Origin: Vibrio aerogenes | GTDB taxonomy: Bacteria > Pseudomonadota > Gammaproteobacteria > Enterobacterales > Vibrionaceae | Assembly (NCBI RefSeq): GCF_024346755.1 | Contig: NZ_AP024863.1 | Span: 21,781-85,780, forward strand | Length of the DNA: 64,000 nucleotides | Direction: 5' to 3' | Shown: positions 737-63,795 of the stretch, in pieces | Layout of the letters: each line of letters begins with the position of its first letter | Position numbering within the stretch: the first letter of the stretch is position 1 | Program-made: the position numbers and the translations under genes | The notes under the pieces: generated by a model | The model's database searches: none | What the model saw: the letters and a program-made list of their open reading frames with translations, nothing else | What the model was told of the DNA's origin: nothing

Positions 737-738
737 GG

Positions 739-8132: not shown

Positions 8133-8213
8133 TTGTTGAAATAAAGAGCATTATAGTTATGTGATTTATATATGAATCATTAATACTATAATGCATCTTA
8201 TACTCATGCTTTC

Positions 8214-42591: not shown

Positions 42592-43063
42592 TATCGCCTC
42601 CGGTGTTTTTCTTATTACCGGCTTGGGCAAGCATGGCTTTTTTTGCCCGTAGCAGTGACTTCATCCAGACCAGCAACTCATTGATCTCATTTTCGATAGC
42701 CATATGTTCTTTGATATCGATGTCGCCTTTTAACAGATAAGAAAATAGTTGGGTTTGTTGATTATCCGGGTCAGTTGTAAAAGTGGTCCAGCTTTTACCA
42801 TGTAAATGCTCTTCGATGATTCGCAGACATAGTGGATAGATGTTGGTTGATTTTTTCTGTTTATTGTTGTTTTCTTCCCCGGCCTGATTTTTTGTCAAAA
42901 ATGCCACAAAGTGCAGTAGGCCGTTATTACGCAAAAAAGCAGGCATGGCAGCGACGGATGTTTCATAGTCCCCAACTGTATCCTCATTGGCCTGTTTTGT
43001 TGCCTCTTCAATCAGCCGGTAACAATGTTTAGCCCGTTGGTTAGACAGTAATTCAATACTCAT
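42584..43063 (-). CDS. cmr5: Type III-B CRISPR small subunit Cmr5
   Basis: From ATG 43063 (in an ATGA with cmr4) the product is 159 residues. It is mainly helical and begins MSIELLSNQRAKHCYRLIEEA, with YETSVAAMPAFLRNNGLLHFVAFL, the usual Cmr5 pattern of NQRA and a LP-xLIxxNGLxxtLAFL block. It forms the inner filament next to the target RNA. Confidence 0.88.
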   Translation of the reverse strand: MSIELLSNQRAKHCYRLIEEATKQANEDTVGDYETSVAAMPAFLRNNGLLHFVAFLTKNQAGEENNNKQKKSTNIYPLCLRIIEEHLHGKSWTTFTTDPDNQQTQLFSYLLKGDIDIKEHMAIENEINELLVWMKSLLRAKKAMLAQAGNKKNTGGDNE

Positions 43064-43935: not shown

Positions 43936-43951
43936 GAGTGGTTCTCCTTCG

Positions 43952-45226
43952 TTACTTCAACGGGATCAGGGTGTAGTGGCCGTAGCCGTACAGAGCATAA
44001 GGTTGTGACTGTGGAAATTGTGATACTGACGATTCACTCAATTGCTGGCTAAACCAGTTTTTCAATTTTGTGTTTTGGGGGAGTCGAAATAACAGGCAAC
44101 TGCCAGATTCATAAAAATGTTCAGCATTAACCGGGCCTGCTTTGTTCTTCTCTGCATTGGCTTGACTCTTCTCTATATTTCTCTCCGACTGCCAACCGCC
44201 GATAGACATGGGTTTATCCGTTAGTTGATTGAGTAGTTCACAGTTGTTAAATCTATCTTTCATTTCTTGAGTAAATTTAGGCCACTGGCTGACCGGGCAA
44301 GGACTTATCAGATTGATAGCAAATAAGTCTCCGTCTGCATATTTAAACTGGTTGTCAATGGTCGGATAAGACTGAAATTTCTCTTCATCTTCATCAATAA
44401 AAGCCATTCGGCCTTCAGCACCAAATCGAATATAAGATCCTGTTTTTTTGAGGTGCTCGTGGAATATTTGTTTGATATTTGTGTTTTCAAATGTCAGTGA
44501 TACAGCAAAGCAAAGGTCCTGATTACTGAATCCTTGCTGATGACGTATATGCTCCGTCAGATAAATCTGCCCATCTTCAGCACTTTTCTTTGCTGCGTTT
44601 AACCCGATGCCTAGCCGGGTTTCCCGGCATATCAGTGTTTCCGGGTCGAGCATGACTTCACTCAAGATCTTTGGATTGAAATTCAGTGGTTCGCCCTGTT
44701 TTATCCAAAGTTGTCGTAAGCGGTATTCCTGATGCTCATCTTCCAGTGATAGGTGATGAATTGTTCCTAAATCGGTTTCGAATGATTTTTTTAAATCAGG
44801 CCTCAGACAGGCAAATTTTTCTATTTCGTTATTTTTTTCTTCTTTTTTATTTTTATTTTCTTCTTTCTTATTTTTATTTTCTTCTTTCTTATTTTCCTCT
44901 TCTTTCTTATTTGAGAAAATTTGTTCAACCACTAATCGTGGCGCCGGAATATAATACTGGGACTGATATTTCAGCCGTACCGGGGAGAGATGAACAGGTG
45001 GGGTATCCTGCCAGTCATCCTGAAATAACTGTTGATTGTCTGCATCTGACAGTTTTGAACCGACCGTTTGTTTTAGCAGAGCCATCAGCGCCCCGAGAAT
45101 AGTTCGCTGTGGCGGAATCAGTTTGCTGATGGCCGCAATTTGGGCACTGCCGTTATGGTTACGGCCATCACGAAAATACCAGGTATCATGCGGGTGAATC
45201 AGCAGGTGAATGGTGTGGTCTGTCAT
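43952..45226 (-). CDS. cmr3: Type III-B CRISPR RAMP protein Cmr3
   Basis: This 424-residue protein begins with IHPHDTWYFRDGRNHNGSAQ, matching the Cmr3 start (P-x-D-x-x-F-FRD), and has AEGRMAFIDE and a C-terminal GYGHYTLIPL. Cmr3 binds the 5' tag of the crRNA next to Cmr2. Residues about 105-135 are a lysine/glutamate/asparagine repeat (EENKNKK units) that is not part of the family and is encoded by a DNA tandem repeat. Confidence 0.9.
   Translation of the reverse strand: MTDHTIHLLIHPHDTWYFRDGRNHNGSAQIAAISKLIPPQRTILGALMALLKQTVGSKLSDADNQQLFQDDWQDTPPVHLSPVRLKYQSQYYIPAPRLVVEQIFSNKKEEENKKEENKNKKEENKNKKEEKNNEIEKFACLRPDLKKSFETDLGTIHHLSLEDEHQEYRLRQLWIKQGEPLNFNPKILSEVMLDPETLICRETRLGIGLNAAKKSAEDGQIYLTEHIRHQQGFSNQDLCFAVSLTFENTNIKQIFHEHLKKTGSYIRFGAEGRMAFIDEDEEKFQSYPTIDNQFKYADGDLFAINLISPCPVSQWPKFTQEMKDRFNNCELLNQLTDKPMSIGGWQSERNIEKSQANAEKNKAGPVNAEHFYESGSCLLFRLPQNTKLKNWFSQQLSESSVSQFPQSQPYALYGYGHYTLIPLK
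44829..44911. repeat. In-frame tandem repeat inside cmr3
   Basis: Two perfect copies of a 21-bp unit (44850-44870 and 44871-44891) lie in a longer degenerate T-rich tract. Since 21 bp is seven codons, gains or losses keep the frame and only change the length of a charged loop. Confidence 0.8.
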
Positions 45227-47538: not shown

Positions 47539-49060
47539 TAGTGCTTCCTTTGTGATAAATGACAGTAAACTCTTCTGATATATGGTGTGAACTAATCAGG
47601 TTAGTCGTTAATTCAGTAAAAAAGCCTTGTGTACTACCAAGTTCATCAATCACTTCCTGCGGTAAAAAAGGTATGGGTACTTCCTTTTTATTTTCGTTAT
47701 CTTTAAAGGACAGTTTGGATTTACTGTTATCAGGTAAATACTTGGAAGTCAGTAACAGAACATTAATCAATTTCTTTTCACTTTTTTCAATATGCTTTCG
47801 AATGCATGATAAAAAGACCAATGCTCCTCTACGCCTGACTTCATGGTTTTTACTGTAAATCCGGTATATCGCTTTTGTTTCTTGTGGTTTTTGGTCTAGG
47901 CCAATTTTTTTTTCACCTTTTTCATCAATCACAAACCTATATGTGATCAGCGGAAACCCAACTTGTAGCCGGGCGGGATACTGGCCCTTAAATATTCTGT
48001 CTTTATCACCCTGACCAATCTGTAAACGTGCTGCTTTATAGGATTCTCCTATTGTCATCAGGAGCTGTTTGTCAGTCATCTCTTTCCTCACAGAAAATTG
48101 AGCCCACAGCGTTGCGGCAGAAAAGGCAGGAATCGGAGGAACAGACCAGTTTTTTATCTGCTGATTATTGATTCGGTCATTTTTGATGCATTGGATCAGT
48201 TGTTTATATAACTGTTCCTGGGATAGGGCCTGATTATTTTCTTTGACCAGCGATTGCGTAAACTGGACGGAAAAAGAACCAAAACCTTTTCTGGAACGGG
48301 AACCTAACCCACCAAATTCGGCAAAACACAGCAGTGCTTCTAAAACCTGCCGGATAGATTGATCGGATAATTCAGGGGAAAACTGAAATACAAAATCGAT
48401 TGACTGATGAGATGACACGACCGGACGAAGTGGTGACATGTCTGATAACTTGCCTTCCCTGAGTTTATACCCCTGCCCGGCAATGTATTGAATCGATGAG
48501 ATGTCATCATCTGGGTTATCATCAGAAGTCAATGAATGAGTTTGGTTGGCTCGATGTATTGGTAAAATGCTTTTTTTTAGCCTTATCCGGACTTTCGAAC
48601 AGCCAATCCCTTTTCCTTCTTCAGCACTGCCCCAGAGTTCACGTTCATTCTGGTGTAGTGTTTGTAGAGTGCGTTTATCAATCGTGGCTTCATCTTTCGG
48701 GAATTGGTCGTTGTTTTTTGCGATGAGCTGTAATTTTACAGGCACCCACTGCAAAGCCCGCCACCAGTAACGAAGCCCGCCTTTTAAACCAGCCAGAGGA
48801 AACTGTGCCGACTCCTGAGATAAAATCTTTGCCTTTAGTTTATCTATGCTACACTTCAGCGTTTGTCTCTCTTCATGACTGATGTTTTTATTTTTTATGC
48901 GGGTAAGGCTTGCTTCTAACTGTTTCCATTCTGGTGAAACCTGTTCAGCATTGTTTAAGAAGGTCATGCTTTCAAAAGTTAACCGGACGGAAATGCATCT
49001 TGTTTCGGTCATCTTACTGACTTTATCTTCAATTTTTTTGTAGAACGGTGTCTCGATCAT
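47525..49060 (-). CDS. cmr1: Type III-B CRISPR RAMP protein Cmr1
   Basis: The start ATG at 49060 follows GGGGGGATAGA, giving 511 residues; a longer frame to 49102 lacks a site. AQFPLAGLKGGLRYWWRALQW and ELWGSAEEGKGIGCSKVRIRL are the Cmr1 signatures (RxxLRYWWR and W/FGS...SKV). FGGLGSRSRKGFGSFSV is the glycine-rich loop. Cmr1 binds the 3' end of the target RNA region. The length is longer than average for Cmr1. Confidence 0.92.
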   Translation of the reverse strand: MIETPFYKKIEDKVSKMTETRCISVRLTFESMTFLNNAEQVSPEWKQLEASLTRIKNKNISHEERQTLKCSIDKLKAKILSQESAQFPLAGLKGGLRYWWRALQWVPVKLQLIAKNNDQFPKDEATIDKRTLQTLHQNERELWGSAEEGKGIGCSKVRIRLKKSILPIHRANQTHSLTSDDNPDDDISSIQYIAGQGYKLREGKLSDMSPLRPVVSSHQSIDFVFQFSPELSDQSIRQVLEALLCFAEFGGLGSRSRKGFGSFSVQFTQSLVKENNQALSQEQLYKQLIQCIKNDRINNQQIKNWSVPPIPAFSAATLWAQFSVRKEMTDKQLLMTIGESYKAARLQIGQGDKDRIFKGQYPARLQVGFPLITYRFVIDEKGEKKIGLDQKPQETKAIYRIYSKNHEVRRRGALVFLSCIRKHIEKSEKKLINVLLLTSKYLPDNSKSKLSFKDNENKKEVPIPFLPQEVIDELGSTQGFFTELTTNLISSHHISEEFTVIYHKGSTNGTE

Positions 49061-49061
49061 T

Positions 49062-50876
49062 CTATCCCCCCAATTTCGCCAAATCGTAGTAGCGCAAATC
49101 AAACAGTTTCACGTTGTATTTCTCATCAACATATTGTGCTTTGACATCTGTGGTTGTCGTCATAAATGTCGCCACCATGCTTGCGACCTTATTGCCGGAG
49201 GTAAAATCAACAACCGTATCCCATTCTTCAACACTGGAAGCCGTCACTACATCCTGTACAGCATTCATACAACTTTCGAAATCATAAAAATTGGCACCGT
49301 ACTCACTGAAGTCAACAGCTTCTGGCAGATTGACATACTTTTCCTGAATCGGAGTGTTGTATAACGTTTCTGATGAGATTCGGGTAAATGGCTGTTCGTG
49401 TCCTGGTTTATACAGATGAAATTCAAGATGATATTGATGGCTGCCGTCGTCGTTATAGATCAGATAGAGTGAAAGTAACTTGAGTAAGGAATCTATCTGA
49501 CGTTTACTGCCTGCATCATTTGGCTGGTTGATGTGTTGTTCTTTTTCACTGTATCCCCGGTCAGAAACAATCAGTGAGACAATTTGTGGATTATCCGGGC
49601 GACCAGCAGAGGCCAAAAGATGGTGTTCCAGTGCGACAAATAACATTCGCCAGCTGGTTCTGGCGGACTTAGCACCAAAGTACGCTAATGTAGCGTCGTA
49701 AACACCGATTAAATCGCTGAATGTCGGTAAAGAAATCGTTTCATCGATATCACCAAAATTCCGCTGAGCCCAAACGTAGCGGCTGATTATTTGTACCAGA
49801 TTTTTATCAGTAATTTCTAATGGATTATCGTTTTCATTGATACGTATTTGTTTGAATATGCAGCTTCCTTTCCTGATACTGGAGAGATCATTGATTTTTG
49901 ATTGAACTTTTTGTACATCAATCTTGTTTCTATCAAAAAAATCGCGACTCATAGTGCCGCCATTCTCTGCAGGATCAAATAATAGTTTCATGATTACAAT
50001 GCTGCTTTTAATGAAATCGTTTTGTTTTTCATCGTTCTCAGAGTCATCCGGAAATTGTTCAATCTTTGATAATTCTTCAATATCCTGGGGAAGATTGCCT
50101 TTTATTGGATGCACCGATTGCTGTTGGAAAATCGACACAAACAAAATCAAATGCCGGTGTGGTGTTACATCCTCGGTTTCTGCCAGCATATTCGTGGGTA
50201 CCGCATGTCTGCGAACCTGATGCAGGAAGAGGTAACCACCAAGAACGGCAAACCATAAGTAATGTAAAGCGGAGAGAGGGGGAATACAGGCAATCGCAAC
50301 ACCGGAGGCAAATATTACTACTGCCAGCCACATATCCGATGGTGTTTCAAAGTACTTCAATAACTTCCTGACTCCAGACTCTGAAGTTCGGGGTGATATG
50401 GTTAGCGCCAGAATAAATAGCACAAAAAGAACAACCATTCCGACGATGATGACCCAGTATGGTGCCGATTTCGCAATATTTTGCAGGATGTCTTTTCCTG
50501 TATCCAGGAGTAACGTGAACAGAAGTAAGGTGAGCAGTAACGCGATTCGTCTCCCGTAGGAGGGTATCTGTTTTAATGCATTTTTAGCTTTTGGATCCGC
50601 AGATAACTGAGCCCTTTTTTCAGATAAAGGGATGATAGAAAGCAACATGATAATCACAAACATCAGTCCTGAGATGACTAAAGTTATCCGATGTATTTCA
50701 TTGGTACTTTGAGGGCCAAGCAACAGAAATTTCAGTTCGGTTGATAGCCAGCCACCACCAATGGCCGCTATCATTGCTGCCAGTACATAACCCGTTAACG
50801 TGACATGAGAGGATTTAAAAAAGTCCACTATCTCCCGCCAAATCACTTTTCCCTGCTTATCCTTTTCTTTACTCAC
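49062..50876 (-). CDS. CRISPR-associated multi-pass membrane protein with C-terminal CARF-like domain (putative effector)
   Basis: From GTG 50876 (after GGAGGGCTGAG) the product is 604 residues. About six hydrophobic helices occupy residues 25-220 (for example TLVISGLMFVIIMLLSIIPL and YWVIIVGMVVLFVLFILAL). A large soluble part follows, starting RHLILFVSIFQQ. Near its end is VVDFTSGNKVASMVATFM (about 555-572), which resembles the D-x-T-G-G-x-K-x-M motif of CARF domains. Its place between the ring nuclease gene and cmr1, in one operon, suggests a cyclic-oligoadenylate-gated membrane effector that would depolarise or permeabilise the cell. I do not recognise a named family; Csx23 and Cam1 are membrane effectors of similar concept but differ in size and layout. 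Confidence 0.6.
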   Translation of the reverse strand: MSKEKDKQGKVIWREIVDFFKSSHVTLTGYVLAAMIAAIGGGWLSTELKFLLLGPQSTNEIHRITLVISGLMFVIIMLLSIIPLSEKRAQLSADPKAKNALKQIPSYGRRIALLLTLLLFTLLLDTGKDILQNIAKSAPYWVIIVGMVVLFVLFILALTISPRTSESGVRKLLKYFETPSDMWLAVVIFASGVAIACIPPLSALHYLWFAVLGGYLFLHQVRRHAVPTNMLAETEDVTPHRHLILFVSIFQQQSVHPIKGNLPQDIEELSKIEQFPDDSENDEKQNDFIKSSIVIMKLLFDPAENGGTMSRDFFDRNKIDVQKVQSKINDLSSIRKGSCIFKQIRINENDNPLEITDKNLVQIISRYVWAQRNFGDIDETISLPTFSDLIGVYDATLAYFGAKSARTSWRMLFVALEHHLLASAGRPDNPQIVSLIVSDRGYSEKEQHINQPNDAGSKRQIDSLLKLLSLYLIYNDDGSHQYHLEFHLYKPGHEQPFTRISSETLYNTPIQEKYVNLPEAVDFSEYGANFYDFESCMNAVQDVVTASSVEEWDTVVDFTSGNKVASMVATFMTTTTDVKAQYVDEKYNVKLFDLRYYDLAKLGG

Positions 50877-50877
50877 C

Positions 50878-51195
50878 TCAGCCCTCCCTGACTAAAAGTC
50901 CAAACTGAAAAGATGCTTCTTCAACCCGCAGCGACATCATCTCTTCTAATGACAACCGTGTTTTGAGATCAAACACGACCGCTTCATCCCCGACGGCCAT
51001 TTCAATCGCAATCCGCTGAAAGGGAATGTCGATACCTGTCAGCCGGGTCAGAAATCTTGCTGTGCTCTCATGGCCAATCGCAGAAATGAAACCATCAGAC
51101 AGCTGATTTCTGACCTCTGAAACAGTCAGTGGCCCGGTATAGCGATAATCACCAAAAGTGGTCAGCACCGGCGAATTGAGAAGAAACACCGTCAT
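50878..51195 (-). CDS. crn2: DUF1874 ring nuclease (Crn2-like; AcrIII-1 family)
   Basis: The start ATG at 51195 follows CCGGAGCATATC, giving 105 residues; a start at 51210 is also possible. The protein reads MTVFLLNSPVLTTFGDYRY, TGPLTVSEVRNQL, GFISAIGHESTARFLTRL, IPFQRIAIEMAVGDEAVVF and a C-terminal FQFGLLVREG. This is the STIV B116-like/DUF1874 family, with the catalytic His in SAIGHESTA (residue 42, corresponding to His47 of the SIRV1 enzyme). Members cleave cyclic tetra-adenylate. The phage form is an anti-CRISPR, while forms encoded within type III loci (Crn2) turn the signal off. As the first gene of the cas operon, an off-switch role is most likely here. Confidence 0.88.
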   Translation of the reverse strand: MTVFLLNSPVLTTFGDYRYTGPLTVSEVRNQLSDGFISAIGHESTARFLTRLTGIDIPFQRIAIEMAVGDEAVVFDLKTRLSLEEMMSLRVEEASFQFGLLVREG

Positions 51196-51221
51196 GATAT
51201 GCTCCGGCATGATAAAGTATC

Positions 51222-54200
51222 ATGCTCATATATATGGATATTAAACTAAATGCTCTAACATTGAGCTGTCAACGACTAATCAGGATTTTTCAGATGTCCG
51301 GAGAAATTGATTTCAGAAGCTTGTTGCCGATCAAAGGAATTGATATCAGCCTGCGCTGTTTATCGCCTGTTCACTGCCAGCCTTTCCACTACCCGGCGAT
51401 GACAGCCTGGCTGAGATATTTGCTTGATATTGGTGATGAATATGAAAAATACTTCTGTATCGGACTGGCTGAATCCGGGAAGACTGAATTTCATAAAGGA
51501 GATTACTATCATCTGAGAATCATGATGATTGCACCACCGGATGTGTTAGTTGAGTCATTATTCCGGCAGCTACATCAACTGCCGGACAGTTTCACCCATC
51601 AAACCAGTGGAGCATTTGGCAGCAATCTGGCACTGGTTTCCATCAAAGATAGCTTTTCTCTGAAAAATGTCACCGATCCGGATCAGCTTTTGGCGCTGGA
51701 TGAGACCTATTTAAAATCTCAGGCAGAATCACTGCAATCCACGGAGCATTTTATCTGGCGGTGGGACAGCTTTGTCCGGCTGAAAAAGAAAAACTCCCCT
51801 GACCGTTACAAACCATTGAAAGGCGATAATCGTTTTTGCCGGGATTGTGATGACTTTTCAGCTGAATTGCTGATGGAAAGAGTGTTCACCACGCTGGCCT
51901 CTTTGGTCACTGAGCATAGTGATAACGAACGTCCCAGATTAGGTGAACTCCCTGAACTCATGCTGGCCGGGTGCGATACGTTCTGGCTGGATAATTATTA
52001 TCTTAAAGATGAACACAGCACGCCAAAATCGATTGGCGGCGCCTGCGGTGAGTTTGTGCTCAGGGGGCAGATGGATCTGATTTGGTGGCAATATCTGATT
52101 CTGCTGCACTGGCTGGGTATGGGGCAACAGCGGGTCTTCGGACTGGGGCGTTTCAGCCTGCTGACCGCTGAGGGTGCTCCCCTGTTAAATCACCGGCCGG
52201 AACCAGCATTGCACTGGAGTCAGCTACTTCATCAGGAACGCTATCTTGATCTGGCGCTGGAAAAAAGCAGCGGCAGTGCGCAGGAGCCGTTACCGGATAA
52301 GCCACAACTGAGAAAGATGGTATCTGCGTTGTTAAACCGGACCTATGAAGTACCGGTATTACAGGGACGAATTCTGGAAAGAGAAGGTAAAGCGCCCCGC
52401 CCGCTTGCTTATCCGCCTCTGGCTGACAGGGTATTGCAGCGGGTGGTGTTGCAGGTGCTGCAACGCAGCTGTGAAAAGTTCTTTGATCATGCCAGTTATG
52501 GTTATCGCCCGGAGCATTCGCGGCAACAGGCGAGAGACCAGATTATGGCGCTGGTCAAAAAAGGTTACCGGTGGGTATTTGAATCGGATATTGAAGATTT
52601 TTTCGACTCATTGAGCCTGGAAAAGCTCGCCATGCGTTTGCGCTGTCTGCTCAATGATGATTGCCTGGTTCATTATCTGCTGGCATGGATGGCGGCTCCG
52701 GTGGATTATCAGGGAGAACGAATCATGCGGGAAAACGGTATTCCACAGGGAAGCCCGCTCAGTCCGCTGATGGCGAATCTGATGCTCGATGATTTTGATA
52801 ATGACCTCAAGCTACAGGGATTTAAACTGGTCCGGTTCGCCGATGATTTTGTCATCATGTGCAAAAACAAAAAACGGGCAGAGCGGGCTCAGGCACTGGC
52901 AGAAAAATCTCTGCATGAACACGGGCTGGCGCTGAATCCGGATAAAACCCGGATTACAGAAATTGATCACAGTATCCAGTTTCTTGGCTACCTGTTCGTC
53001 AACGATACGGTTCTGGATAATCCGAAACGATCCGCGAACAAGGATCTGTCGGTTCCGCCGCATTCATGGCTGGCTGAATATCATGCCCGCATGGCGGTGA
53101 AAGCTGAAAATCCGGATGAACCGCCAGCTGAACAACCATCTGAGCCCGTCAATGAATCTTCCCAAGAGAGTGAACTACCGGAGCCTGTTAATATCACGGA
53201 CGAAGCGGATGATGACTTTGCCATCTCAGCGGACGGGTTAACGGATGATGCGTCTGCCGGTGAAGAGCTGATGCAGGAAGCAGAAGATGAGGTGCTCAAC
53301 CATGAGGAAGAACCCGCTCCGGCAGGTTTGCGGGACAGCCGGGGCACCGGGATTTATATTTCTGGTGACCCTTGTATTATCCGGACCTGTGCTCACCGGG
53401 TTGTGGTGCAGCGGGGAGAAAATATCCTGACCGACACGCCGTGGACGGCGGTCAATCATCTGATTTTATTCGGTCATCATCAAATCACCAGTCAGGCGAT
53501 TCATCAGGCTTGTGAACAAGGGATAGCCATTCATCATGCCACCGGTATGGGGCGTTATGTTGGTGTTACCACTTCGCCGTCACAGAATTCAGCCAGTCAG
53601 CGACTTCAGCAAAAGCAGTTGGCACTGGATGAAACGTTGCAGTTGCAGATTAGCCGGGCGCTGGTTATGGCCAGAATCCGCAGCTGCCGGGAAATTCTGC
53701 GCCGACGGGGACGCGATGAGCATCAGGCTCTGCACCAATACCAGCAACAGGCGGAAAGCGCCGCCAGTCTGATGCAGTTACGTGGTTATGAAGGCATGGC
53801 GACCCGGTTTTATTTTGCTGCGATTCAGGAAATTTTGCCCGACTGGGCGGAATTTTCCGGACGTAACCGACAGCCGCCACAAGACCCGTTTAATGCACTT
53901 TTATCACTGGGTTATACCCTGCTCTATGGTTTTACTGACAGCCTGTTACGAGCCAGCCACCTGTTATCCTGGGCCGGCGTTTATCATCAGCCGGAGGGGC
54001 GCCATGCTGCATTAGCCTCTGACATGATGGAGCCATTCCGGTATCTGGTTGAGCGGGTTGCTTTGACTCTGGTGAATAAGAAGATTCTCACTGAAGCGGA
54101 TTTTGAAGCACGGGATGGCGGAATCTGGTTGCTGACACACGGGCGTCAGCGTTATCTGGCATCGCTGTTACAAGCGTTGAATACACAAAAAGCTGTGAAC

Positions 54201-54305
54201 AGCTTACCAGCCTGTTCGATCATTGATCACATCCAGCAACAGATTAACAGCTATATTACGACCATTCGCTCCGGGGAGGCATTTCAGGCATGGCACAGCC
54301 GTTAA
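51222..54305 (+). CDS. cas6-RT-cas1: Cas6-reverse transcriptase-Cas1 fusion
   Basis: This 1027-residue protein has three parts. Residues about 1-310 are Cas6-like, ending in the glycine-rich GMGQQRVFGLGRF. Residues about 340-600 are a group II intron-like reverse transcriptase with YGYRPEHS, IPQGSPLSPLMANLML and the catalytic FADD at about 539-542. An acidic, proline-rich linker (about 625-695) leads to Cas1, with catalytic E857 (LRGYEG), H922 (AGVYH) and D934 (LASDMMEP). The protein should process crRNA, reverse-transcribe RNA and integrate spacers. ATG 51222 leaves only 26 bp to the divergent ring nuclease gene, so ATG 51294 (after CAGGATTTTTC) is a reasonable alternative start. Confidence 0.95.
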   Translation: MLIYMDIKLNALTLSCQRLIRIFQMSGEIDFRSLLPIKGIDISLRCLSPVHCQPFHYPAMTAWLRYLLDIGDEYEKYFCIGLAESGKTEFHKGDYYHLRIMMIAPPDVLVESLFRQLHQLPDSFTHQTSGAFGSNLALVSIKDSFSLKNVTDPDQLLALDETYLKSQAESLQSTEHFIWRWDSFVRLKKKNSPDRYKPLKGDNRFCRDCDDFSAELLMERVFTTLASLVTEHSDNERPRLGELPELMLAGCDTFWLDNYYLKDEHSTPKSIGGACGEFVLRGQMDLIWWQYLILLHWLGMGQQRVFGLGRFSLLTAEGAPLLNHRPEPALHWSQLLHQERYLDLALEKSSGSAQEPLPDKPQLRKMVSALLNRTYEVPVLQGRILEREGKAPRPLAYPPLADRVLQRVVLQVLQRSCEKFFDHASYGYRPEHSRQQARDQIMALVKKGYRWVFESDIEDFFDSLSLEKLAMRLRCLLNDDCLVHYLLAWMAAPVDYQGERIMRENGIPQGSPLSPLMANLMLDDFDNDLKLQGFKLVRFADDFVIMCKNKKRAERAQALAEKSLHEHGLALNPDKTRITEIDHSIQFLGYLFVNDTVLDNPKRSANKDLSVPPHSWLAEYHARMAVKAENPDEPPAEQPSEPVNESSQESELPEPVNITDEADDDFAISADGLTDDASAGEELMQEAEDEVLNHEEEPAPAGLRDSRGTGIYISGDPCIIRTCAHRVVVQRGENILTDTPWTAVNHLILFGHHQITSQAIHQACEQGIAIHHATGMGRYVGVTTSPSQNSASQRLQQKQLALDETLQLQISRALVMARIRSCREILRRRGRDEHQALHQYQQQAESAASLMQLRGYEGMATRFYFAAIQEILPDWAEFSGRNRQPPQDPFNALLSLGYTLLYGFTDSLLRASHLLSWAGVYHQPEGRHAALASDMMEPFRYLVERVALTLVNKKILTEADFEARDGGIWLLTHGRQRYLASLLQALNTQKAVNSLPACSIIDHIQQQINSYITTIRSGEAFQAWHSR

Positions 54306-54583
54306 TTATTTATGCAGTCTGCTTTGACATCAGTGACGACAAGGTACGCCGCCGGGTGGGTAAAATTCTGCTCAGTTATGGTGACCGGGTGCAGGAATCG
54401 GTCTTTGAAATTGCGGTAAAAACGCCTTATCAACTCAATTCTGTATCAGAAAAAATCCAGCGACTGCTGGATGAAACCGACAAGGTTCGTTTCTACCGCC
54501 TGTGTGCCAGGTGCCGGGCGCATTCTCATGTCCTCGGTGAAGGCCGTATCGCCGACTGGCCGGATTCTATCATTATCTGCTGA
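54290..54583 (+). CDS. cas2: CRISPR adaptation protein Cas2
   Basis: This 97-residue ferredoxin-like protein begins IIYAVCFDISDDKVRRRVGKILLSYGDRVQESVFE, with the YDI/FDI strand and catalytic-type Asp of Cas2. It overlaps the fusion gene by 16 bp and would form the Cas1-Cas2 integrase core. It ends 7 bp before the degenerate distal repeat of array 2. Confidence 0.94.
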   Translation: MAQPLIIYAVCFDISDDKVRRRVGKILLSYGDRVQESVFEIAVKTPYQLNSVSEKIQRLLDETDKVRFYRLCARCRAHSHVLGEGRIADWPDSIIIC

Positions 54584-54590: not shown

Positions 54591-54831
54591 TGATTGATGG
54601 CCTGTCCGGGCCAGTGTCTTCCGACGCAGAAGCAGTAGATCAATTTGGTAACTCACATGGTCCTAACGGCCTGTTTCGGCCAGTGTCTTCCGACGGTTCA
54701 TCGGTGGTTCCACCAGGTAACATACAACGTCCTAACGGCCTGTTTCGGCCAGTGTCTTCCGACCGAAGGAGAAATTATGTTTGATTTTTTACAAGAGTCC
54801 TAACGGCCTGTTTCGGCCAGTGTCTTCCGAC
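54591..54831 (-). CRISPR. CRISPR array 2 (4 repeats, 3 spacers)
   Basis: Repeats are at 54591-54625 (left half degenerate), 54660-54694, 54729-54763 and 54797-54831; the last three are identical 35-mers. Spacers are 34, 34 and 33 bp. The leader is on the right, so the array is read on the minus strand and the newest spacer is at the right. That spacer (54764-54796) contains GAAGGAGAAATTATG on the plus strand, like the start of a gene. Confidence 0.95.
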
Positions 54832-55057
54832 AGCACCCTCTGGAGGCCTTGATATATAAGGGCTGAGAAGGGCGAATTGGCCGATCTGTATAAATATACA
54901 TGTAAAAACCCCATATTTTGGCTGTTTTCAGAGGGGATCGGCCAATTGCCGATCTCATCAGACGAGTGGTGATTATATCATCAATTCTGGTGTTGATTCA
55001 AAGCGTTAAGGTGAATGTGCACGGTTTTCATTGGAAATTGTGGCATCTGGCCGATCT
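54832..55057 (-). promoter_or_regulatory. Leader of CRISPR array 2
   Basis: These 226 bp are a near-identical copy of the array 1 leader. The minus-strand promoter is TTGAAT (55001-54996), 18 bp, TATAAT (54977-54972), about 140 bp from the first repeat. The 12-bp inverted repeat AATTGGCCGATC/GATCGGCCAATT and the TGTATAAATATACA palindrome are conserved, and TGGCCGATCT recurs at 55048-55057, where similarity to leader 1 ends. Confidence 0.75.
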
Positions 55058-56629: not shown

Positions 56630-58075
56630 TCAATTATCTCTCATATACTTTTGCAGAGTTTTTTGATCCACCTCCAATGCTTCTGCGGCTTTAACCCATG
56701 TTCTGAATTGCTTTTTGGCAGCTGTTGCAAATTCCTTATGAAACGCTTTCGTTAACTCATCCTTAGTTGTCATGGATAGATCACCAAATGTAAATCTCGT
56801 TTCTTGACTATCATCTTGGATAACCTGTTCGCCCAACGAAGCTAGTGAGCTAGAGATTGCCGACTCTGTATCTTGGGCACTTAAAAACGCACACGTCATG
56901 TATGCCAGCTTTTTTAGGTCACGTAAGTTACCTGGTAAATATGCCGAGTTAAAAAACTGGATTAACTCATTTGAAACAGGGGCTTCCTCAGGCAGATTAG
57001 GGTTAACATTGACTTCCTGCCAGATGCGTTGCCAATCAGACAAAATATCTTCTCTGCATGCCCGAAGTGGAGGGATTGTAATAGTGAGCATGGATACACG
57101 ATCAAAGAAATCAGCATCAAGTATCGTTGCCAATTGCTCAAGTGATTTATTACTCGCACAAACCAGCTCGAAGTCAGATGCTTCCTCAGTGTCACTCCCA
57201 ACAGGGCGAAAACTGTGATGATTATCTTGAAGCACTCTAACCAGCTTTCGTTGAACCGAAGTTGGTAAATCTTGTATCTCATCCAAGAACAATACTTTTC
57301 CATTTGATTCTTTCAAAAGCCCATTGCGATCCTTTTCCGCTCCAGTGAACGCACCTTTTACGTGGCCAAACAACATACTATCAACCACTTGAGAATCTAG
57401 TCCTCCACATGCAAGCGTAACAACCTGCTTTTGCTTTACCTTACCGACAACGGTTTCAATTAGCCTCGTTTTCCCTGTACCACGTTCACCCAGTACAAGT
57501 AACGGAGCTTTGGGAACACAAGAGAACTGCTTTAACGTTTGTAATGCATCCTGCCTTGCTTTTGATTTAGGGTCTAAATCGTAAAGGGCGTAACCGCCCT
57601 CTGAACTTGAAATAGCAGAGATCTCTGCCAGATACGTGTTTACACTGAAATCAACTTTGGCAATGCTGGTTCTTTTGGTATCGGGGTTATATTGTGATGA
57701 CCAGAGGATTGTTTCGCGTGGAAAATGCCCCCGAGCATGAAGAATCAACCAAACCGCATGCATCGCCGGTGTTCCCGGCGATACATTGATATGAAGATTC
57801 TGTTCAAGCTTTAGCTCTGGAATAATCTCAGACTCTATTGCGTGGTAAATTTCGTTGTGATCAGCTGGGTTCTCGATAGCTACAGTTCGAAAGGTAATCT
57901 GTATATCGCCAAATTCATGCTCTTTGTACAGACTGTTATCCCCAGCTGACTGAGTAAGAACAATGACTTTGCCAACATAAACTTTACGATTCTTAAGCCG
58001 CTTTAACGCTTCGTCTAATACCTCAACCCCAGCTCTTTTTGAGTGCCAACAAAGCAGTGTGTTTTTGTTATCCAA
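56630..58075 (-). CDS. RtcR-like sigma-54 activator with CARF-like N-terminus
   Basis: This 481-residue protein has an N-terminal domain with HINVSPGTPAMHAVWLILHARG (about 95-116), which resembles the ligand-binding motif of the CARF domain of RtcR. An AAA+ domain follows, with Walker A GERGTGKT (196-203), an intact sigma-54 contact loop GAFTGA (241-246), Walker B VLFLDEIQ (261-268), an arginine finger region FFDRVS and YLPGNLRDLKKL. A short C-terminal helix-turn-helix ends with KTLQKYMRDN. RtcR senses RNA ends and activates an RNA-repair operon. This relative is encoded last in the operon it probably activates, 2 bp after the PLD gene. Confidence 0.85.
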   Translation of the reverse strand: MDNKNTLLCWHSKRAGVEVLDEALKRLKNRKVYVGKVIVLTQSAGDNSLYKEHEFGDIQITFRTVAIENPADHNEIYHAIESEIIPELKLEQNLHINVSPGTPAMHAVWLILHARGHFPRETILWSSQYNPDTKRTSIAKVDFSVNTYLAEISAISSSEGGYALYDLDPKSKARQDALQTLKQFSCVPKAPLLVLGERGTGKTRLIETVVGKVKQKQVVTLACGGLDSQVVDSMLFGHVKGAFTGAEKDRNGLLKESNGKVLFLDEIQDLPTSVQRKLVRVLQDNHHSFRPVGSDTEEASDFELVCASNKSLEQLATILDADFFDRVSMLTITIPPLRACREDILSDWQRIWQEVNVNPNLPEEAPVSNELIQFFNSAYLPGNLRDLKKLAYMTCAFLSAQDTESAISSSLASLGEQVIQDDSQETRFTFGDLSMTTKDELTKAFHKEFATAAKKQFRTWVKAAEALEVDQKTLQKYMRDN

Positions 58076-58077
58076 AG

Positions 58078-59613
58078 TTACGCCTCCAATACAATTCGGG
58101 CGTTTGGCAATTCACTTTGCTTCAGCCTTTTTGCCATGGCAAGTTCGTATTCTTGACGAACTGTAATAGCTAACTGTTTTTTTGTCAGTCGAACAACCTT
58201 TGGCTCATAACTCTCTCTAAGCGATCCTGAATCCTGCTTCTTAGAAGTTTCATCCTTAGCCGTTAAAGGTTTGAAATACTCTGGACTGGCGTTAGTGATA
58301 ACTGGCGGCTCTATACGCCATTTATACTCAATCTTGTGCGATGTTTTTTCCCGCCAGTTTGCATTGGGTATTTTTGGGTGCTTATCCATATCAGACAAGC
58401 AATCTGCTTTTATAGGTGATAATTCAACAATGTCTACTTCGCTGACTGAGTACCTCTTGAATGTATTATTTTCCCAAGCTTCAAAACCACCAGAAATCAT
58501 CCCTAGACTCATGTCGATGCTCAATTCATTGTGGCTATTAGTTAAAAACATATCTAAGCAGTTCATCAGCTCTTTTACCTGAGTACCGGTGAGTTTTACG
58601 CCTAACTCAAAGCCTTGATCCATACCATGCGCTTGAAAATTGGCCGACATCACCATGCCATGCATTCCATCTACTACAATCGCTTTGGCATGTAGCCATT
58701 TAAAACACATCACCGATGCACCAGCCTGTTTCATAGCCAACAACGCTGGCATGGCTGCGAGTCTTTGGCGAGATAGAATGGTGACTTTTAGCCCCGACTT
58801 CGCACGTTCACATATTGCTTTTACAAGCTGATGGTCCTCTTGCCATCCAAAACTCGATATGATGAGTTCATTTTCCGCTTGATTGATCAACGCTAATGCA
58901 TGTTCCCTAATTCGAGCGTCTTCACTGGATGTGACCAGTATTTCAGTTAATTCCCTTGGATATCTGACATTGCCCGGCGACTTATATGCTGAGAATTCAC
59001 CACGGCTTGTCATATGGTGCTGCGCACTCTCGAAGATTGCCCAACGGAACACTTTCACGATCTCATCTATTTGATGGCGTGAAAGCGAGACCCCCAACTC
59101 TTCATTTCGTTTCAGTGCTTCTTCTGTAAGGTTTGCCGTTAACAGTAACCCTTTCGCATCACCGATCTCATGTAATGCATCTATGACCACAGCCTTTGCG
59201 TGGAAATGTGGCGCAGATGCAAAGTGAACATGTCCAGACAATTTGTTTAACATTTCCTTATGCTGCACAAGACACTTTTTACCAAACTCATCATCAGGCA
59301 CATCGCCATCAAGACGAGTCTCACATGCCAATAGTATGTACACACGAACTTTGCGCTTTGCAGCTTTTAGGACAGCAGATTCGACATTCTCATCAGCAAG
59401 CAAAAACGTACTAAGAATAACCGAGTGTTCGGCATTATCGATTAATTCGACAACTCTTGATTGCAGCTCATTGCAGAACAAAGCGCTATTAATAGGTTGC
59501 GGAGCAGATACCTGTTTAGGTAAAACAGGCAAAAGCACAGGGGGCAACTTGGTATTTGATTGATCAACAATCTTGGTTTCTGTCTTAGTAAACTTTTCAA
59601 TTAGATTCATCAC
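58078..59613 (-). CDS. Phospholipase D-family protein (two HKD motifs), putative nuclease
   Basis: This 511-residue protein has two PLD repeats. The first has HFHAKAVVID with H138 and K140 and TANLTEEALKRNEELGV; the second has WLHAKAIVVDGMHG with H308, K310 and D315 and SANFQAHGMDQGFELGV. Both active-site halves are therefore present. In defence operons such proteins usually act as metal-independent nucleases. The C-terminal roughly 150 residues are unlike the PLD fold and may bind partners. It starts 9 bp after the stop of the winged-helix-like gene. Confidence 0.87.
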   Translation of the reverse strand: MMNLIEKFTKTETKIVDQSNTKLPPVLLPVLPKQVSAPQPINSALFCNELQSRVVELIDNAEHSVILSTFLLADENVESAVLKAAKRKVRVYILLACETRLDGDVPDDEFGKKCLVQHKEMLNKLSGHVHFASAPHFHAKAVVIDALHEIGDAKGLLLTANLTEEALKRNEELGVSLSRHQIDEIVKVFRWAIFESAQHHMTSRGEFSAYKSPGNVRYPRELTEILVTSSEDARIREHALALINQAENELIISSFGWQEDHQLVKAICERAKSGLKVTILSRQRLAAMPALLAMKQAGASVMCFKWLHAKAIVVDGMHGMVMSANFQAHGMDQGFELGVKLTGTQVKELMNCLDMFLTNSHNELSIDMSLGMISGGFEAWENNTFKRYSVSEVDIVELSPIKADCLSDMDKHPKIPNANWREKTSHKIEYKWRIEPPVITNASPEYFKPLTAKDETSKKQDSGSLRESYEPKVVRLTKKQLAITVRQEYELAMAKRLKQSELPNARIVLEA

Positions 59614-59622
59614 TATTATTCC

Positions 59623-60732
59623 TTATAGGTTCCAATCATGGGCTGCAATGACATGCCAGGTATGCTGATTTTGCTGGTCTTCTTCAATCCAAAACTGATT
59701 TGCCAGCTCAGCCCTATCAGGTAGTGTAAAATTCCAACTATTAAAAGGTTCGAGTGCTTTTTCTCTCCACACCTGGTAATTGCTATTAGTGGCATACATA
59801 TAGATATTTTTATCTAATCGCCATTCAGCCCACTCTCTAGCATCCGATTCTGTAAATGCTGAAATGGATATATTTGGTAACTTCATTGAATCGAAAGTAC
59901 CCAATTCATAAACGGACGGTTTTTCTATGTTTACAGCTTTTCGCATGCTTATTCGTTCTTCTTCAGTTGTCTTATCAAAAGGAATAGATAAAACCTCTTC
60001 TCGTTCATCCCATTGCTTTAACAACCCTACATTATCAAGGAGTACTTCCAGAATTTTCTGGCGAATAACAGGCTCAACCGTACGCGTGTAAACAAGATCT
60101 TTCCCTCGTTTAACTTCAACAATTCCAGCTGTAACATTCCACTCGATGTAATAAGGTTTACCTTGAGGTGGTATGCGTTCACCTTTAAGTTCTATTTTGT
60201 CCACGCGTACTTCCGAGCCACCACCTATTGGTTGTTCTTGTAAACCAACGAGTTCCTTAACGGATTGAGATATCTCCAACAACTTATCAGCCCGCGCTTT
60301 TAGGTTATGACGGTTCTTCCCCAGCCCGATTGACGCTGCGCTTGGCTCCATATGCGCTTCAATAGTCAAAAGTGGATGGGGTAATAAAGGCTCATCACAA
60401 ATACATAACTTCCAGCACCCATCTGTCGGCACTAAAACATGGTCTTTTTTAAGTGCAGCTTCCCCTGCATCAGTCAATATATATTGGCCTCGAACTGATT
60501 CTGCCAGGCCATATAACCGACAAATATTCAGTAACCTTTCAGCGACGACACGACGTCCGATTTTTTCTCCAAATAAGTGTTCGGAGCACTCGGAAGAACT
60601 CGCATTCGGATAATCTTGAAGAAATTGCAGCACGCAGTTAATTTCTGGACGGCTATCTGCCAGCGCGATTTCACCCTGTATGAGCCAACTTTCAGTCTTA
60701 ATTTCTCGTTTGAGTATGATGTCCTGGCTCAT
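59623..60732 (-). CDS. Unknown protein with winged-helix-like N-terminus
   Basis: I do not recognise this 369-residue protein. Residues about 30-95 (VLQFLQDYPNASSSECSEHLFGEK, VAERLLNICRLYGLAESVRGQYILTDAGEAAL) look like a winged helix. The middle part has beta-rich segments such as YYIEWNVTAGIVEVKRGKDL. The C-terminus has many Trp and acidic residues. The start overlaps the helicase stop in an ATGA, so the two are coupled. It may be an adaptor or target-recognition subunit of the helicase-PLD system. Confidence 0.7.
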   Translation of the reverse strand: MSQDIILKREIKTESWLIQGEIALADSRPEINCVLQFLQDYPNASSSECSEHLFGEKIGRRVVAERLLNICRLYGLAESVRGQYILTDAGEAALKKDHVLVPTDGCWKLCICDEPLLPHPLLTIEAHMEPSAASIGLGKNRHNLKARADKLLEISQSVKELVGLQEQPIGGGSEVRVDKIELKGERIPPQGKPYYIEWNVTAGIVEVKRGKDLVYTRTVEPVIRQKILEVLLDNVGLLKQWDEREEVLSIPFDKTTEEERISMRKAVNIEKPSVYELGTFDSMKLPNISISAFTESDAREWAEWRLDKNIYMYATNSNYQVWREKALEPFNSWNFTLPDRAELANQFWIEEDQQNQHTWHVIAAHDWNL

Positions 60733-63455
60733 AGTGCCTCCTGTGATTCAGTCTCGATTGTTGTAGACCAGTAAGAATTGCTGGCAAAAGTACCTAACAC
60801 ACCCGATGCCTTTTGCATTGCTGAGCGGTTTCCATACACAATGAGCTGATGCTTGGCCCTCGTAATTGCCACATTCAATCGATTTGGGCTTTCGAGAAAA
60901 CTCGTGGGATGATTATTTGCGAAACTAAGTATGACAAAGTCAGCCTCATGTCCCTGAAAACGGTCTACTGTACATATCTGAATATCAATATACGGTGAGG
61001 ATTTCTCACCTCGATAGAAATGCCTTACTCCGTGATGATTTCCCGTCCACTTTCGTAATGCTCGACGTATAGCTCGCTCTTGTGCCCGATAGAAAGCCAA
61101 AACAGCAACTTCCCATGGCTTTTGTCGGTTTTTCTCAATATTTGAGTTCGATTTTGCCCAAGAATCAAAGCGGTTTAATTCTTTTAATATTTCTTCTACT
61201 TCAGCGGTGATTTCACCTTCTTTGCCTTTTCGGCCTTTAACATCGTGCCATATACAACGATGTGAGCCGTTTCGATAACCCCAGTCCCGCTTTTCAGCCA
61301 GGCCATCAGGGCTTTGCAATGCTTTTCCATGGTATATGTGTACTCGGGAAAATTCGGCGATGTCTGGATGCATCCGGTGCTGGTAGCTAAGCCGTATTTG
61401 TCGTTGATTTAAAACATTAGCGGGAAGTCCATCAGACAGAGCGGTGCCTTTTTTCTGATACTCTGTACGTTCAAATCCAACTTGCAGTGATTCAAGAATA
61501 GAAGGCAGTGCGATCCTACGTACCCTGTTTATTGCAGTGAACGTATCTTTTTCTGAGTCGAATGGTAGTAACGCTTTGATATCTTCCTCTAACTTGTTAG
61601 CAGTTTTAGAACTTCCGTCAGATTCTGTATTTAGGCGCTGTTCGTACATGCGAGCCAGTCGCCACGCTAACTGGGATTCCCAGCTATCGGACTCGGTCTT
61701 GATTTTTGTACGAGTTAATCTCGAATGCGCTGAAAGTCGCATTTCTAACTTTTTCGGTAACGCAGGCAGCCCCCTTATGGTCGTCAAATCCAGGGGAAGG
61801 TGATTAGCATTCTGAACGATGAACACTGACGAACCAAGGACTACTGATGCGTAAGGGAGATCTGTCTTCGGACCTTTAGATGATGCAACCAATACATTTT
61901 TGGACTTTGCTTGCTGATGATAAAATTCAATTGTCTTTTCATCGTCAGTGCAAACCAAGGATACTTCTCGTTTCTGAATATTGATTTGTCGGGCAGAGAA
62001 AATATCTGCGCATGCTTCTCGCTGATAACTATCCTGTAAACATGGCTGCAAATTTACCTCGGTAGCTTCATCATCAACATAAGGTGAAAGCTGTTTTGGG
62101 TCTCCCACCATGATCCAACGCTTGGCAAGTACCGCTGGCACCAAAAACTCTTGAAAAGTTGTTTTTGATGCTTCATCAATAATCATCACATCGAAGATTG
62201 GCGATGTTGATTGTTTATTTTTGATATCAGGATGCTGAAGCAACCCAATAGTTGTCCCGCAAACTAAATTCGCCGCTTCAAGAACAAGACGCTCAACAAT
62301 ATGTTTACCTTCACCGACCTTACTTTTAAGTAACTTCTGACTAACTGAAATGTTTGGTTGCTGCTGAAGATGTTTTAGCAATCTTGTGCGTTCAGTTTTA
62401 ACAAACTCTTCCAATTGCCATGGCTTTGCCTTTTGAGAAACGCTGGATTTATCTCCAATCCGCACAGGTAAAACCATATCGCGATACATGTTTTCATCAG
62501 ACATCATTCGCTCAAGAACATTGTCAACAGCAACATGAGTTGATGCACAAAGTAAGATCCGCTTACCTCGCTTTATTAGTTGAAGAATCAGTTCGCAAAT
62601 TGCTGTAGTTTTACCTGATCCCGGGGGGCCCTCAAGGAAGGCAAAGTCAGGCGTGTTGAGTGCAATATTTACAAACTCACGTTGCTGAGATGTTCCCTCT
62701 CTTGCACCATCAGTAAGAACGTAGTACTCATCGCATAAGTGCTTATCATAAGGAACACTCGGCCACTTGGCATGGTCCTTACCTTCAAACAGCCTTAATA
62801 GTGGAAGATGATGAATAGAAGGGGAGTCTTGTAAGCTTTGTAATGCATTAATCTGACACTTTATCTGGTATGTGTTTGGACGAATAACCAAATAGTCGTG
62901 GTCAGGTAAGCGATCCAATAACAAGCTGTCATTTTCTACATTTCTGTCCAAGGCTGAAATTGCGTTGGATTTATTGAATCCCACATTATCTTGAGATTTT
63001 CCAGTCAAATGCCAACCGTAGCCGTCTGGGCACTCATAAGATGACAGCCCATTGCCTAATTCACTTGCAATTTCGTCCGCGTGTTCCTTCGTCGCATAAG
63101 CCATTTTAGGCTTACCATAACTTCTACAATTTGGGCATTCCCTGGCTGCACTCCCTACTACCTTCCATCTCGCAGGGCTTGCTTCGTATACAGTATCAGT
63201 ACTTTCATCTAGAAAGCGCTTTAAGTTCTTTTCGAAATCACCACAGTTATCAGCAGGCTCAACTAATTGTATCCACACTCCATCCGGAGCATCATCCAGC
63301 TTTTCCCAAGCTATCGCTTTAACAGCCTTTGTACTTTCCAGGTATTTTCGAGTGGTATCTAAATACTTATAAAACTCACCCAGACCACTCACGACTTTAC
63401 TAAGCAGAATATCTGGCCGGTGAATTCCTAAGTTAGCGTATCTCAATAACGCCAT
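60729..63455 (-). CDS. SF1 (UPF1-like) helicase with zinc-ribbon-like segment
   Basis: This 908-residue protein has an N-terminal domain with ECPNCRSYG and SSYECPDGYGWHLTG (about 105-152), a likely metal-binding ribbon. The AAA_11/AAA_12-type helicase core follows: Walker A GPPGSGKTT at 276-284, motif Ia LLCASTHVAVDNVLERM, DEAS at 427-430, GDPKQLSP at 451-458, SYQHRMHPDIAEFSR, VDRFQGHEADFVILS and LNVAITRAKHQLIVYG. This set is typical of the UPF1-like SF1B group acting on RNA or DNA. It is first in the four-gene operon and follows a sigma-54-like promoter. Mokosh defence systems also pair an SF1 helicase with a PLD protein, but the kinase part of type I Mokosh is not seen. Confidence 0.88.
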   Translation of the reverse strand: MALLRYANLGIHRPDILLSKVVSGLGEFYKYLDTTRKYLESTKAVKAIAWEKLDDAPDGVWIQLVEPADNCGDFEKNLKRFLDESTDTVYEASPARWKVVGSAARECPNCRSYGKPKMAYATKEHADEIASELGNGLSSYECPDGYGWHLTGKSQDNVGFNKSNAISALDRNVENDSLLLDRLPDHDYLVIRPNTYQIKCQINALQSLQDSPSIHHLPLLRLFEGKDHAKWPSVPYDKHLCDEYYVLTDGAREGTSQQREFVNIALNTPDFAFLEGPPGSGKTTAICELILQLIKRGKRILLCASTHVAVDNVLERMMSDENMYRDMVLPVRIGDKSSVSQKAKPWQLEEFVKTERTRLLKHLQQQPNISVSQKLLKSKVGEGKHIVERLVLEAANLVCGTTIGLLQHPDIKNKQSTSPIFDVMIIDEASKTTFQEFLVPAVLAKRWIMVGDPKQLSPYVDDEATEVNLQPCLQDSYQREACADIFSARQINIQKREVSLVCTDDEKTIEFYHQQAKSKNVLVASSKGPKTDLPYASVVLGSSVFIVQNANHLPLDLTTIRGLPALPKKLEMRLSAHSRLTRTKIKTESDSWESQLAWRLARMYEQRLNTESDGSSKTANKLEEDIKALLPFDSEKDTFTAINRVRRIALPSILESLQVGFERTEYQKKGTALSDGLPANVLNQRQIRLSYQHRMHPDIAEFSRVHIYHGKALQSPDGLAEKRDWGYRNGSHRCIWHDVKGRKGKEGEITAEVEEILKELNRFDSWAKSNSNIEKNRQKPWEVAVLAFYRAQERAIRRALRKWTGNHHGVRHFYRGEKSSPYIDIQICTVDRFQGHEADFVILSFANNHPTSFLESPNRLNVAITRAKHQLIVYGNRSAMQKASGVLGTFASNSYWSTTIETESQEAL

Positions 63456-63493: not shown

Positions 63494-63510
63494 ATCAAGC
63501 ATCATGCCAA
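63494..63510 (-). promoter_or_regulatory. Candidate sigma-54 promoter of the helicase operon
   Basis: The minus strand reads TTGGCATGATGCTTGAT, differing from the -24/-12 consensus (YTGGCACGrNNNTTGCW) at two positions, with correct spacing between the GG and TTG elements. It ends 38 bp before the helicase start, which leaves room for a short leader. An activator with GAFTGA is encoded in the same operon. Confidence 0.6.
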
Positions 63511-63574: not shown

Positions 63575-63600
63575 GTGTAAATTTTACACCTATAGGTGTA
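63575..63600 (-). promoter_or_regulatory. Palindromes at enhancer distance from the sigma-54-like promoter
   Basis: GTGTAAATTTTACAC (63575-63589, 7-bp arms) and TACACCTATAGGTGTA (63585-63600, a perfect 16-bp palindrome) overlap. They lie about 65-105 bp upstream of the -24/-12 element, the usual distance for the binding site of a sigma-54 activator. A further half-site-like CATAGGTG follows at 63611-63618. Confidence 0.5.
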
Positions 63601-63795
63601 TTTTATAACCCATAGGTGGGGTGCTTCACAGAGTCAATGATGATCCGGATGTGAATTGAAAAGAATCAAACGAACTAGTCATCCTTGTAACTGAAAAACA
63701 ATTGTATATTGGGTGCCGGTAAGCCGATCGAACAAATATACCCAAAACGTCATTGACCCCTTCCACTCAAATAGCAAAACACCCCTCCCCCAATT

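Follow-up and report, generated by a model that had tools for sequence, protein, structure and literature searches.

Activators that resemble RtcR and carry a CARF sensor domain have already been published as regulators of defence genes (PMC4012209, PMC11090510), and Makarova et al. (2014) suggested that RtcR-like CARF regulators encoded next to restriction systems detect the products of an infection (PMC4012209). We analysed a stretch of 64,000 nucleotides from Vibrio aerogenes (contig NZ_AP024863.1; hereafter, the window), in which a regulator of this kind is encoded in one operon with a UPF1-like helicase, a 369-aa protein without family matches and a PLD-family protein. The operon is a module made from known kinds of parts, and it belongs to none of the named systems against which it was tested. 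Defence is its likeliest role and, judging from its sequence and distribution, probably the real one; we further propose, with a probability of about 0.62, that it is a mobile, inducible and self-amplifying module acting against phages or plasmids, the exact mechanism being less certain than the role in defence. This proposal builds on the gene set and its order, the promoter-like and palindromic elements, the intact catalytic motifs, the mobility of the module and the purifying selection acting on it.

The original prediction, made from the letters of the window without database searches, described four minus-strand genes with spacings of -4, 9 and 2 bp, and our open reading frame (ORF) calls reproduce this exactly, in the order helicase, 369-aa protein, PLD protein and regulator. 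Overall, what it had observed was confirmed, whereas its interpretation was supported in part. The features of the locus are the following:

60729..63455, minus strand: UPF1/IGHMBP2-like superfamily 1 (SF1) helicase, 908 aa, ATG start (Pfam, TIGR00376 and motif alignment)
59623..60732, minus strand: protein without family matches, with a predicted winged-helix-like N-terminus followed by beta-rich parts, 369 aa, ATG start (AlphaFold2 model)
58078..59613, minus strand: PLD-family protein with two HxK(x)4D motifs, 511 aa, GTG start (Pfam, PADLOC and NCBIfam)
56630..58075, minus strand: sigma-54 activator with CARF, AAA+ (GAFTGA) and C-terminal helix-turn-helix (HTH) parts, 481 aa, TTG start, last gene of the operon
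63495..63510, minus strand: sigma-54-type -24/-12 site TTGGCATGATGCTTGA (GG-N10-GA), beginning 54-55 bp upstream of the helicase ATG
63586..63611, minus strand: candidate upstream activating sequence (UAS), consisting of the perfect palindrome ACACCTATAGGTGT at 63586-63599 and a GGGTT half-site at 63607-63611 (motif search)

The operon is not a chance arrangement, because its gene order recurs in distant bacteria and because all four genes are under purifying selection, with ratios of nonsynonymous to synonymous divergence (dN/dS) of 0.07-0.24 in six pairwise comparisons. We scanned 84,980 species genomes using an alignment of the 369-aa protein and two peptide patterns, and the 232 pattern matches yielded 14 loci. 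Thirteen of these (L018-L030) contain all four genes in the same order, as judged by tblastn, although three are impaired or truncated: in L024 stops interrupt the helicase frame, the helicase of L026 is split and the regulator of L028 runs off the contig end. L031, from Planctomycetota, contains the helicase and the 369-aa protein gene only. Two further complete copies are carried by plasmids of V. rumoiensis and Pontibrevibacter, and a decayed remnant by a Klebsiella IncF plasmid (L013, 12001-18663), near a CTX-M-15 gene; in this remnant the PLD and regulator genes are full-length, the 369-aa protein gene is interrupted and lies beside genes of the insertion sequence (IS) family IS21, IS26 is found upstream, and no helicase match was detected in the DNA examined. 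The host range of the module comprises gamma- and alphaproteobacteria, and we obtained no result for the system in phage genomes, viral contigs or E. coli genomes.

Linkage among the genes is also evident from surveys that started from other members of the operon. Of 72,556 plasmid records, three encode the regulator (E<=1e-50), and these are also the three that encode the 369-aa protein; likewise, among 398 genomes of the phylum, with the best two or three candidates per genome scored for regulator and helicase, RtcR_PspF1 at E<=1e-80 was found in two, again the same two with the 369-aa protein, and the helicase at E<=1e-40 in those two plus genome G397. In the latter, the gene after the helicase encodes a 473-aa protein, which the 369-aa family profile matches with E 2.8e-7, a value obtained in the small database of that contig's frames; the 9.2-kb contig has other neighbours, and no PLD or regulator gene was seen on it. 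Distances among the four proteins are congruent (r 0.979-0.996 over seven taxa), with two deep lineages dominating the comparison. The gene-neighbourhood survey that had been proposed as a check therefore found that the four genes do co-occur, instead of being scattered.

The helicase matches the Pfam models AAA_11 (3.1e-37) and AAA_12 (9.3e-32), which identify it as a UPF1-like SF1 protein, and TIGR00376 with 8.5e-48 (163 bits, under the model cut-off). Its motifs GPPGSGKTT, DEASK, GDPKQLSP, VDRFQGHEAD and NRLNVAITRA are conserved, save for single substitutions, in all ten aligned sequences, including that of the window. As had been predicted, the PLD protein has both HxK(x)4D motifs intact in the window and matches PLDc_2 in two stretches (3.1e-25); its nearest models are DrmC and then MkoB.

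The 369-aa protein, earlier assigned to no known family, indeed had no match in Pfam, PADLOC or NCBIfam at E<=0.1, in PHROGs at 0.001 or, by sequence, in the PDB at E 1. It had also been said to begin like a winged helix, and its AlphaFold2 model (mean pLDDT 83.6, pTM 0.70) agrees with this, the predicted N-terminal elements (H29-40 H46-53 H58-73 E77-80 E83-86) following an order of winged-helix type. Between the window and L018, synonymous divergence (dS) is 0.09-0.23 in the helicase, PLD and regulator genes and just 0.08 and 0.16 at the two ends of the 369-aa protein gene. Across the central block of this gene (codons ~45-290), DNA identity drops to 65-78%, and dS is 1.1 for codons 45-130, 2.1 for codons 130-210 and saturated or not computable for codons 210-290. 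The limits of the block differ in L027, and dN/dS over the whole length of the gene is 0.14-0.24. This central block looks like an allele replacement under purifying selection, as expected for a part that meets a variable partner.

The regulator matches Sigma54_activat (Pfam, 2.8e-37), has an intact GAFTGA and is a full-length member of PADLOC RtcR_PspF1 (CARF_AAA_HTH, PDLC01994; 693.3 bits, profile positions 2-467 of 468). Its match to the canonical RtcR model NF038308 is partial (4.8e-56, 190.7 bits versus a cut-off of 650) and does not qualify it as a canonical RtcR. Taken alone, residues 1-165 fall by sequence profile into the CARF superfamily: after their own family, RtcR_PspF2 is the best match (7.5e-13), followed by CARF1--CARF_HEPN (4.9e-9, matched by 8 of 8 members), Csx1/Csm6 (7.9e-6) and, last, canonical RtcR (5.2e-4, matched by 5 of 8 members). 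The motif SPGTPAM is invariant in the CARF domain of the eight members. These matches bear out the earlier description of an AAA+ activator with intact GAFTGA and a CARF-like N-terminus. In hhalign comparisons, the CARF domain was colinear with that of RtcR over 155 columns, but weakly so (E 0.0008, probability 10), while four control activators aligned over 1-33 columns; the domain alone retrieved a single PDB sequence (E 0.69), by name not a CARF protein. Since E-values against different CARF models do not measure kinship, a closer relationship with Csm6/Csx1 is a lead only; nevertheless, because the domain fits Csm6/Csx1-type models better than canonical RtcR, RNA-damage sensing is one option among several, and the resemblance points to cyclic oligonucleotides as possible ligands. 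The host genome also contains a canonical RtcR (L036, G000:C1:120766-122352; 784 bits), so that two CARF-sigma-54 activators coexist in it.

Upstream of the helicase, the core TGGCAYRAWGMTTGA of the -24/-12 site is present in 12 of 12 close upstream regions, those of the window and 11 close relatives, and the distant L028 and L029 have GG-N10-GC. The sigma-54 consensus score was equalled by 0-5 of 200 shuffles in each of the seven gammaproteobacterial upstream regions tested. There is one ACACCTATAGGTGT palindrome in the window; with one mismatch, such a palindrome is expected by chance ~1.3 times per window, and the argument for it therefore rests on its position and on the relatives. Indeed, GGGTGN4CACCC occurs in L029 and L014 (0/200 shuffles), and a near-copy in L030 (2/200). 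The features expected of a sigma-54 activator, or bacterial enhancer-binding protein (bEBP), that is, GAFTGA and a -24/-12 promoter, are both found in the window (with GA at -12) and both absent in the alphaproteobacterial L014 and L030: their regulators have no GAFTGA and no sigma-54 site stands out in L014 (45/200 shuffles) or L030 (156/200), while the palindrome is kept. That loop and site are missing together is our strongest indication that the regulator and the promoter form a pair. L031, where no regulator was seen, has no sigma-54-like site either (198/200). RpoN is present in 14 of the 14 hosts examined, including the genome of L030 (Celeribacter); this and the other host surveys covered 14 genomes and excluded those of L013, L014, L028 and L031. 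GAFTGA is likewise missing from the NtrC of Rhodobacterales, which in R. capsulatus reportedly acts via sigma-70 (PMC10274813). The regulator most likely activates transcription of the very operon that its gene closes. In this respect, the proposal that an RtcR-like activator controls the helicase and PLD genes gains support, as the genes form a conserved unit behind a sigma-54-type site that their own regulator most likely uses.

Contig C3 (85,780 bases) of a three-contig genome, to which the window belongs, is most likely a plasmid, since ParA/ParB-like genes lie at its start (by eye) and it also contains a replicase gene and type IV transfer genes. In other hosts, eight loci (L018-L020, L022-L026) lie within a common longer element, whose flanking pieces are ~84-99% identical in pairwise comparisons. 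In L023, the one annotated among these eight, the order is TraE, TraK, TrbI/TraB, TraV, a TrbC-like pilin (match slightly under cut-off), AbiEi/AbiEii, the four genes, DsbC, TraC and TraU; the AbiEi/AbiEii toxin-antitoxin pair is located upstream of the module, at 4931-6695. Going by this gene order, we tentatively take the element to be an SXT/R391-type integrative and conjugative element (ICE) with the module in the traA-traC hotspot. Cargo of SXT ICEs is reported to cluster in five hotspots, with the defence systems of pandemic V. cholerae ICEs in hotspot 5 (PMC12409358). When the window, L012, L021 and L027 were compared with the longer element, the common DNA barely exceeded the operon, reaching at most from about -175 to +110 bp, so that the operon itself seems to be the moving unit.

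Several other clusters share the contig with the operon. A type I restriction-modification system (HsdS, HsdM and HsdR) occupies 739-6545 of the window, and a cluster of type VI secretion system kind, with a VgrG-like spike, a DUF4123 protein and a VasX-N protein, lies at 29233-35536. A type III-B CRISPR locus extends over 41629-54583, with Cmr6, Cmr5, Cmr4, Cmr3, Cas10, Cmr1, a CARF/TM-type protein, a Cas6-RT-Cas1 fusion and Cas2. At either end of this locus lies a copy of a 261-nt block (41351-41611 and 54797-55057; 95% identity), next to 39-nt repeats that form two short related arrays.

From the features of the operon we infer how its sites would work, which of its products would form a complex, and what ligand, substrate and defence outcome would be involved. 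The regulator would be made at a low basal level, and its CARF domain would bind an infection-associated oligonucleotide, which could be cyclic or, as has been proposed for RtcR, consist of linear RNA ends. The regulator would then assemble on the palindromic GGGTG/CACCC sites and, at the -24/-12 site before the helicase gene, its GAFTGA AAA+ ring would open sigma-54 RNA polymerase; since the operon ends with the regulator's own gene, activation should feed back positively. The helicase, the two-HKD PLD nuclease-like protein and the winged-helix-like adaptor would probably join in a single complex that both travels along and cuts foreign nucleic acid, and the swapped central block of the adaptor suggests that it would contact the target or a phage antagonist. 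A bolder version, which we advance tentatively and consider rather doubtful, is a stand-alone immunity by transcriptional ignition: a CRISPR-free, Csm6-like CARF would recognise an oligonucleotide made during infection and fire its own sigma-54 promoter (sigma-70 in Rhodobacterales) in an all-or-none loop, and the winged-helix-like adaptor of the helicase-PLD nuclease would be a swappable specificity or escape subunit.

Other roles might be served by the same genes. An RtcR-like architecture (seen in the matches to NF038308 and, for the CARF alone, to RtcR_PspF2), the canonical RtcR in the same host and the action of UPF1-like helicases on RNA or single-stranded DNA (PMC11090510) would all suit a house-keeping repair or surveillance of nucleic acids, for instance a clearance of damaged RNA that is induced by RNA damage like Rtc and has no part in defence. 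We consider this unlikely, as the locus is rare and patchy (2 of 296 genomes of the family and 2 of 398 of the phylum), is carried on plasmids and a conjugative element and includes a swapped allele block, which make up a defence-like pattern. A rather improbable alternative is that the genes act in the competition or maintenance of mobile elements (anti-plasmid activity, exclusion or processing of conjugative DNA) for the benefit of their carrier: copies do exist on plasmids typed as conjugative and within a transfer-gene cluster, but the copy in Stutzerimonas has chromosomal ORFs resembling coaD and mutM (by eye) as neighbours, and none of the four genes matches a relaxase or entry-exclusion family in Pfam.

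The vicinity of the type III-B locus, whose last genes are tail-to-tail with the operon, raises the further possibility that the CARF domain responds to cyclic oligoadenylate from the neighbouring Cas10 and that the activator thereby adds a transcriptional arm to the III-B response. The Cas10 of the window has the GGED palm motif (by eye), and the CARF domain matches Csm6/Csx1-type models. However, five III-B proteins from the window had no match around the 17 other loci (E<=1e-4, >45 bits, in the DNA examined), and a full-length Cas10 match was obtained in 1 of 14 hosts, the genome of the window itself; weak partial matches of 27-31 bits occur in three more hosts, and an E. coli control matches too. 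An obligatory link with type III CRISPR is ruled out by these results, and the association is therefore at most an opportunistic one in this plasmid; we regard this reading of the operon as very improbable.

Several observations weigh against our proposal of a mobile, inducible defence module, or narrow it. Besides the restriction of full-length Cas10 to one host, SMODS cyclases were found in 5 of the 14 hosts; neither enzyme is thus present in every host examined, and these hosts have no common ligand source. The sensor had been called RtcR-type, yet, next after its own family and the sister model RtcR_PspF2, CARF1--CARF_HEPN outscores canonical RtcR on the same residues. The -12 dinucleotide is GA, instead of the usual GC, in all 12 close upstream regions. 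The shuffle test for the UAS palindrome, which covered two orientations and eight gap lengths, gave 0-4 of 200 shuffles (best orientation) in the window, L012, L014, L027, L029 and L030, but no significant palindrome in L018, L021 and L028, nor in L031. PLD proteins include lipid enzymes, so that a nuclease substrate is putative, and in the PLD protein of L030 the second HKD motif has a different residue in place of the D. The V. rumoiensis plasmid 2 is typed as non-mobilizable. As to the helicase, its SF1 UPF1-like nature stands, whereas the Cys-rich ribbon ascribed to it is missing in five distant aligned members (L028, L029, L030, L031 and L046); the ribbon is therefore a trait of the close clade only and can be discarded as a core feature. 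The system had been presented as undescribed, and in the searches made this held for the gene set but not for the regulator, whose type is already known from PADLOC (RtcR_PspF1) and in print. Finally, helicase and 369-aa protein genes with no PLD or regulator gene seen nearby occur as pairs in L031 and L046, and the four genes are therefore not inseparable; these two genes may be an older core, and the pairs possibly belong to a wider family of systems. The L046 pair (704-9014) has as neighbours AAA ORFs, 566-aa and 204-aa proteins and a radical SAM protein, and the neighbours of the L031 pair (3671-9139) are unannotated.

If correct, our proposal would define a compact, mobile and autoregulated defence module whose transcription depends on a signal and which has a defined promoter and a CARF sensor, and it would make the question of the ligand of non-CRISPR CARF domains directly testable. 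The alphaproteobacterial copies would be a natural example of sigma-54 control giving way to, presumably, control by sigma-70. What is new here is the -24/-12 site, with GA at -12, kept in the window and 11 relatives; the palindromes are clear in some lineages only.

The set of four genes matched no named system in Pfam, PADLOC or NCBIfam, in agreement with the claim of the original prediction that no named system has these four parts, and we found no published description of it, though the 2020 CARF classification may mention the neighbourhood. With Csm6/Csx1 effectors, the operon shares CARF similarity, its own CARF having the invariant SPGTPAM; its output, however, is a sigma-54 activator and not a HEPN RNase, and there is no tie to Cas10 in the other hosts examined. 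DISARM is similar in its DrmC-like PLD, but the PLD protein of the operon, at 106.2 bits, stays below the DrmC cut-off of 133, and no DrmA or DrmB (DUF1998) appears among the matches listed, which for helicase and PLD are the best 25 of 30 in PADLOC. Mokosh likewise combines a UPF1-like helicase (MkoA) with a PLD (MkoB). The best stretch of our helicase spans positions 619-1081 of the 1112-position MkoA model, and is thus not full-length, the PLD is weak against MkoB (37.6 bits), and the operon adds a CARF activator and the 369-aa subunit. RtcR of the RtcR/RtcBA system is also a CARF-AAA+-HTH sigma-54 activator with GAFTGA and a sensor domain of oligonucleotide type; here, in contrast, the regulator falls short of the canonical model, stands last and is accompanied by helicase and PLD genes, with no rtcA- or rtcB-like match among the four genes (Pfam). 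The RtcR-associated Type II CoCoNuT superoperons resemble the operon in joining an RtcR-like CARF regulator with UPF1-like helicase and PLD genes (PMC11090510). No McrB GTPase (CnuB) or McrC (CnuC) is present among the matches listed for our four genes, and, whereas the appended CARF gene of CoCoNuTs is described at the 5' end (PMC11090510), that of the Vibrio aerogenes operon is the last gene.

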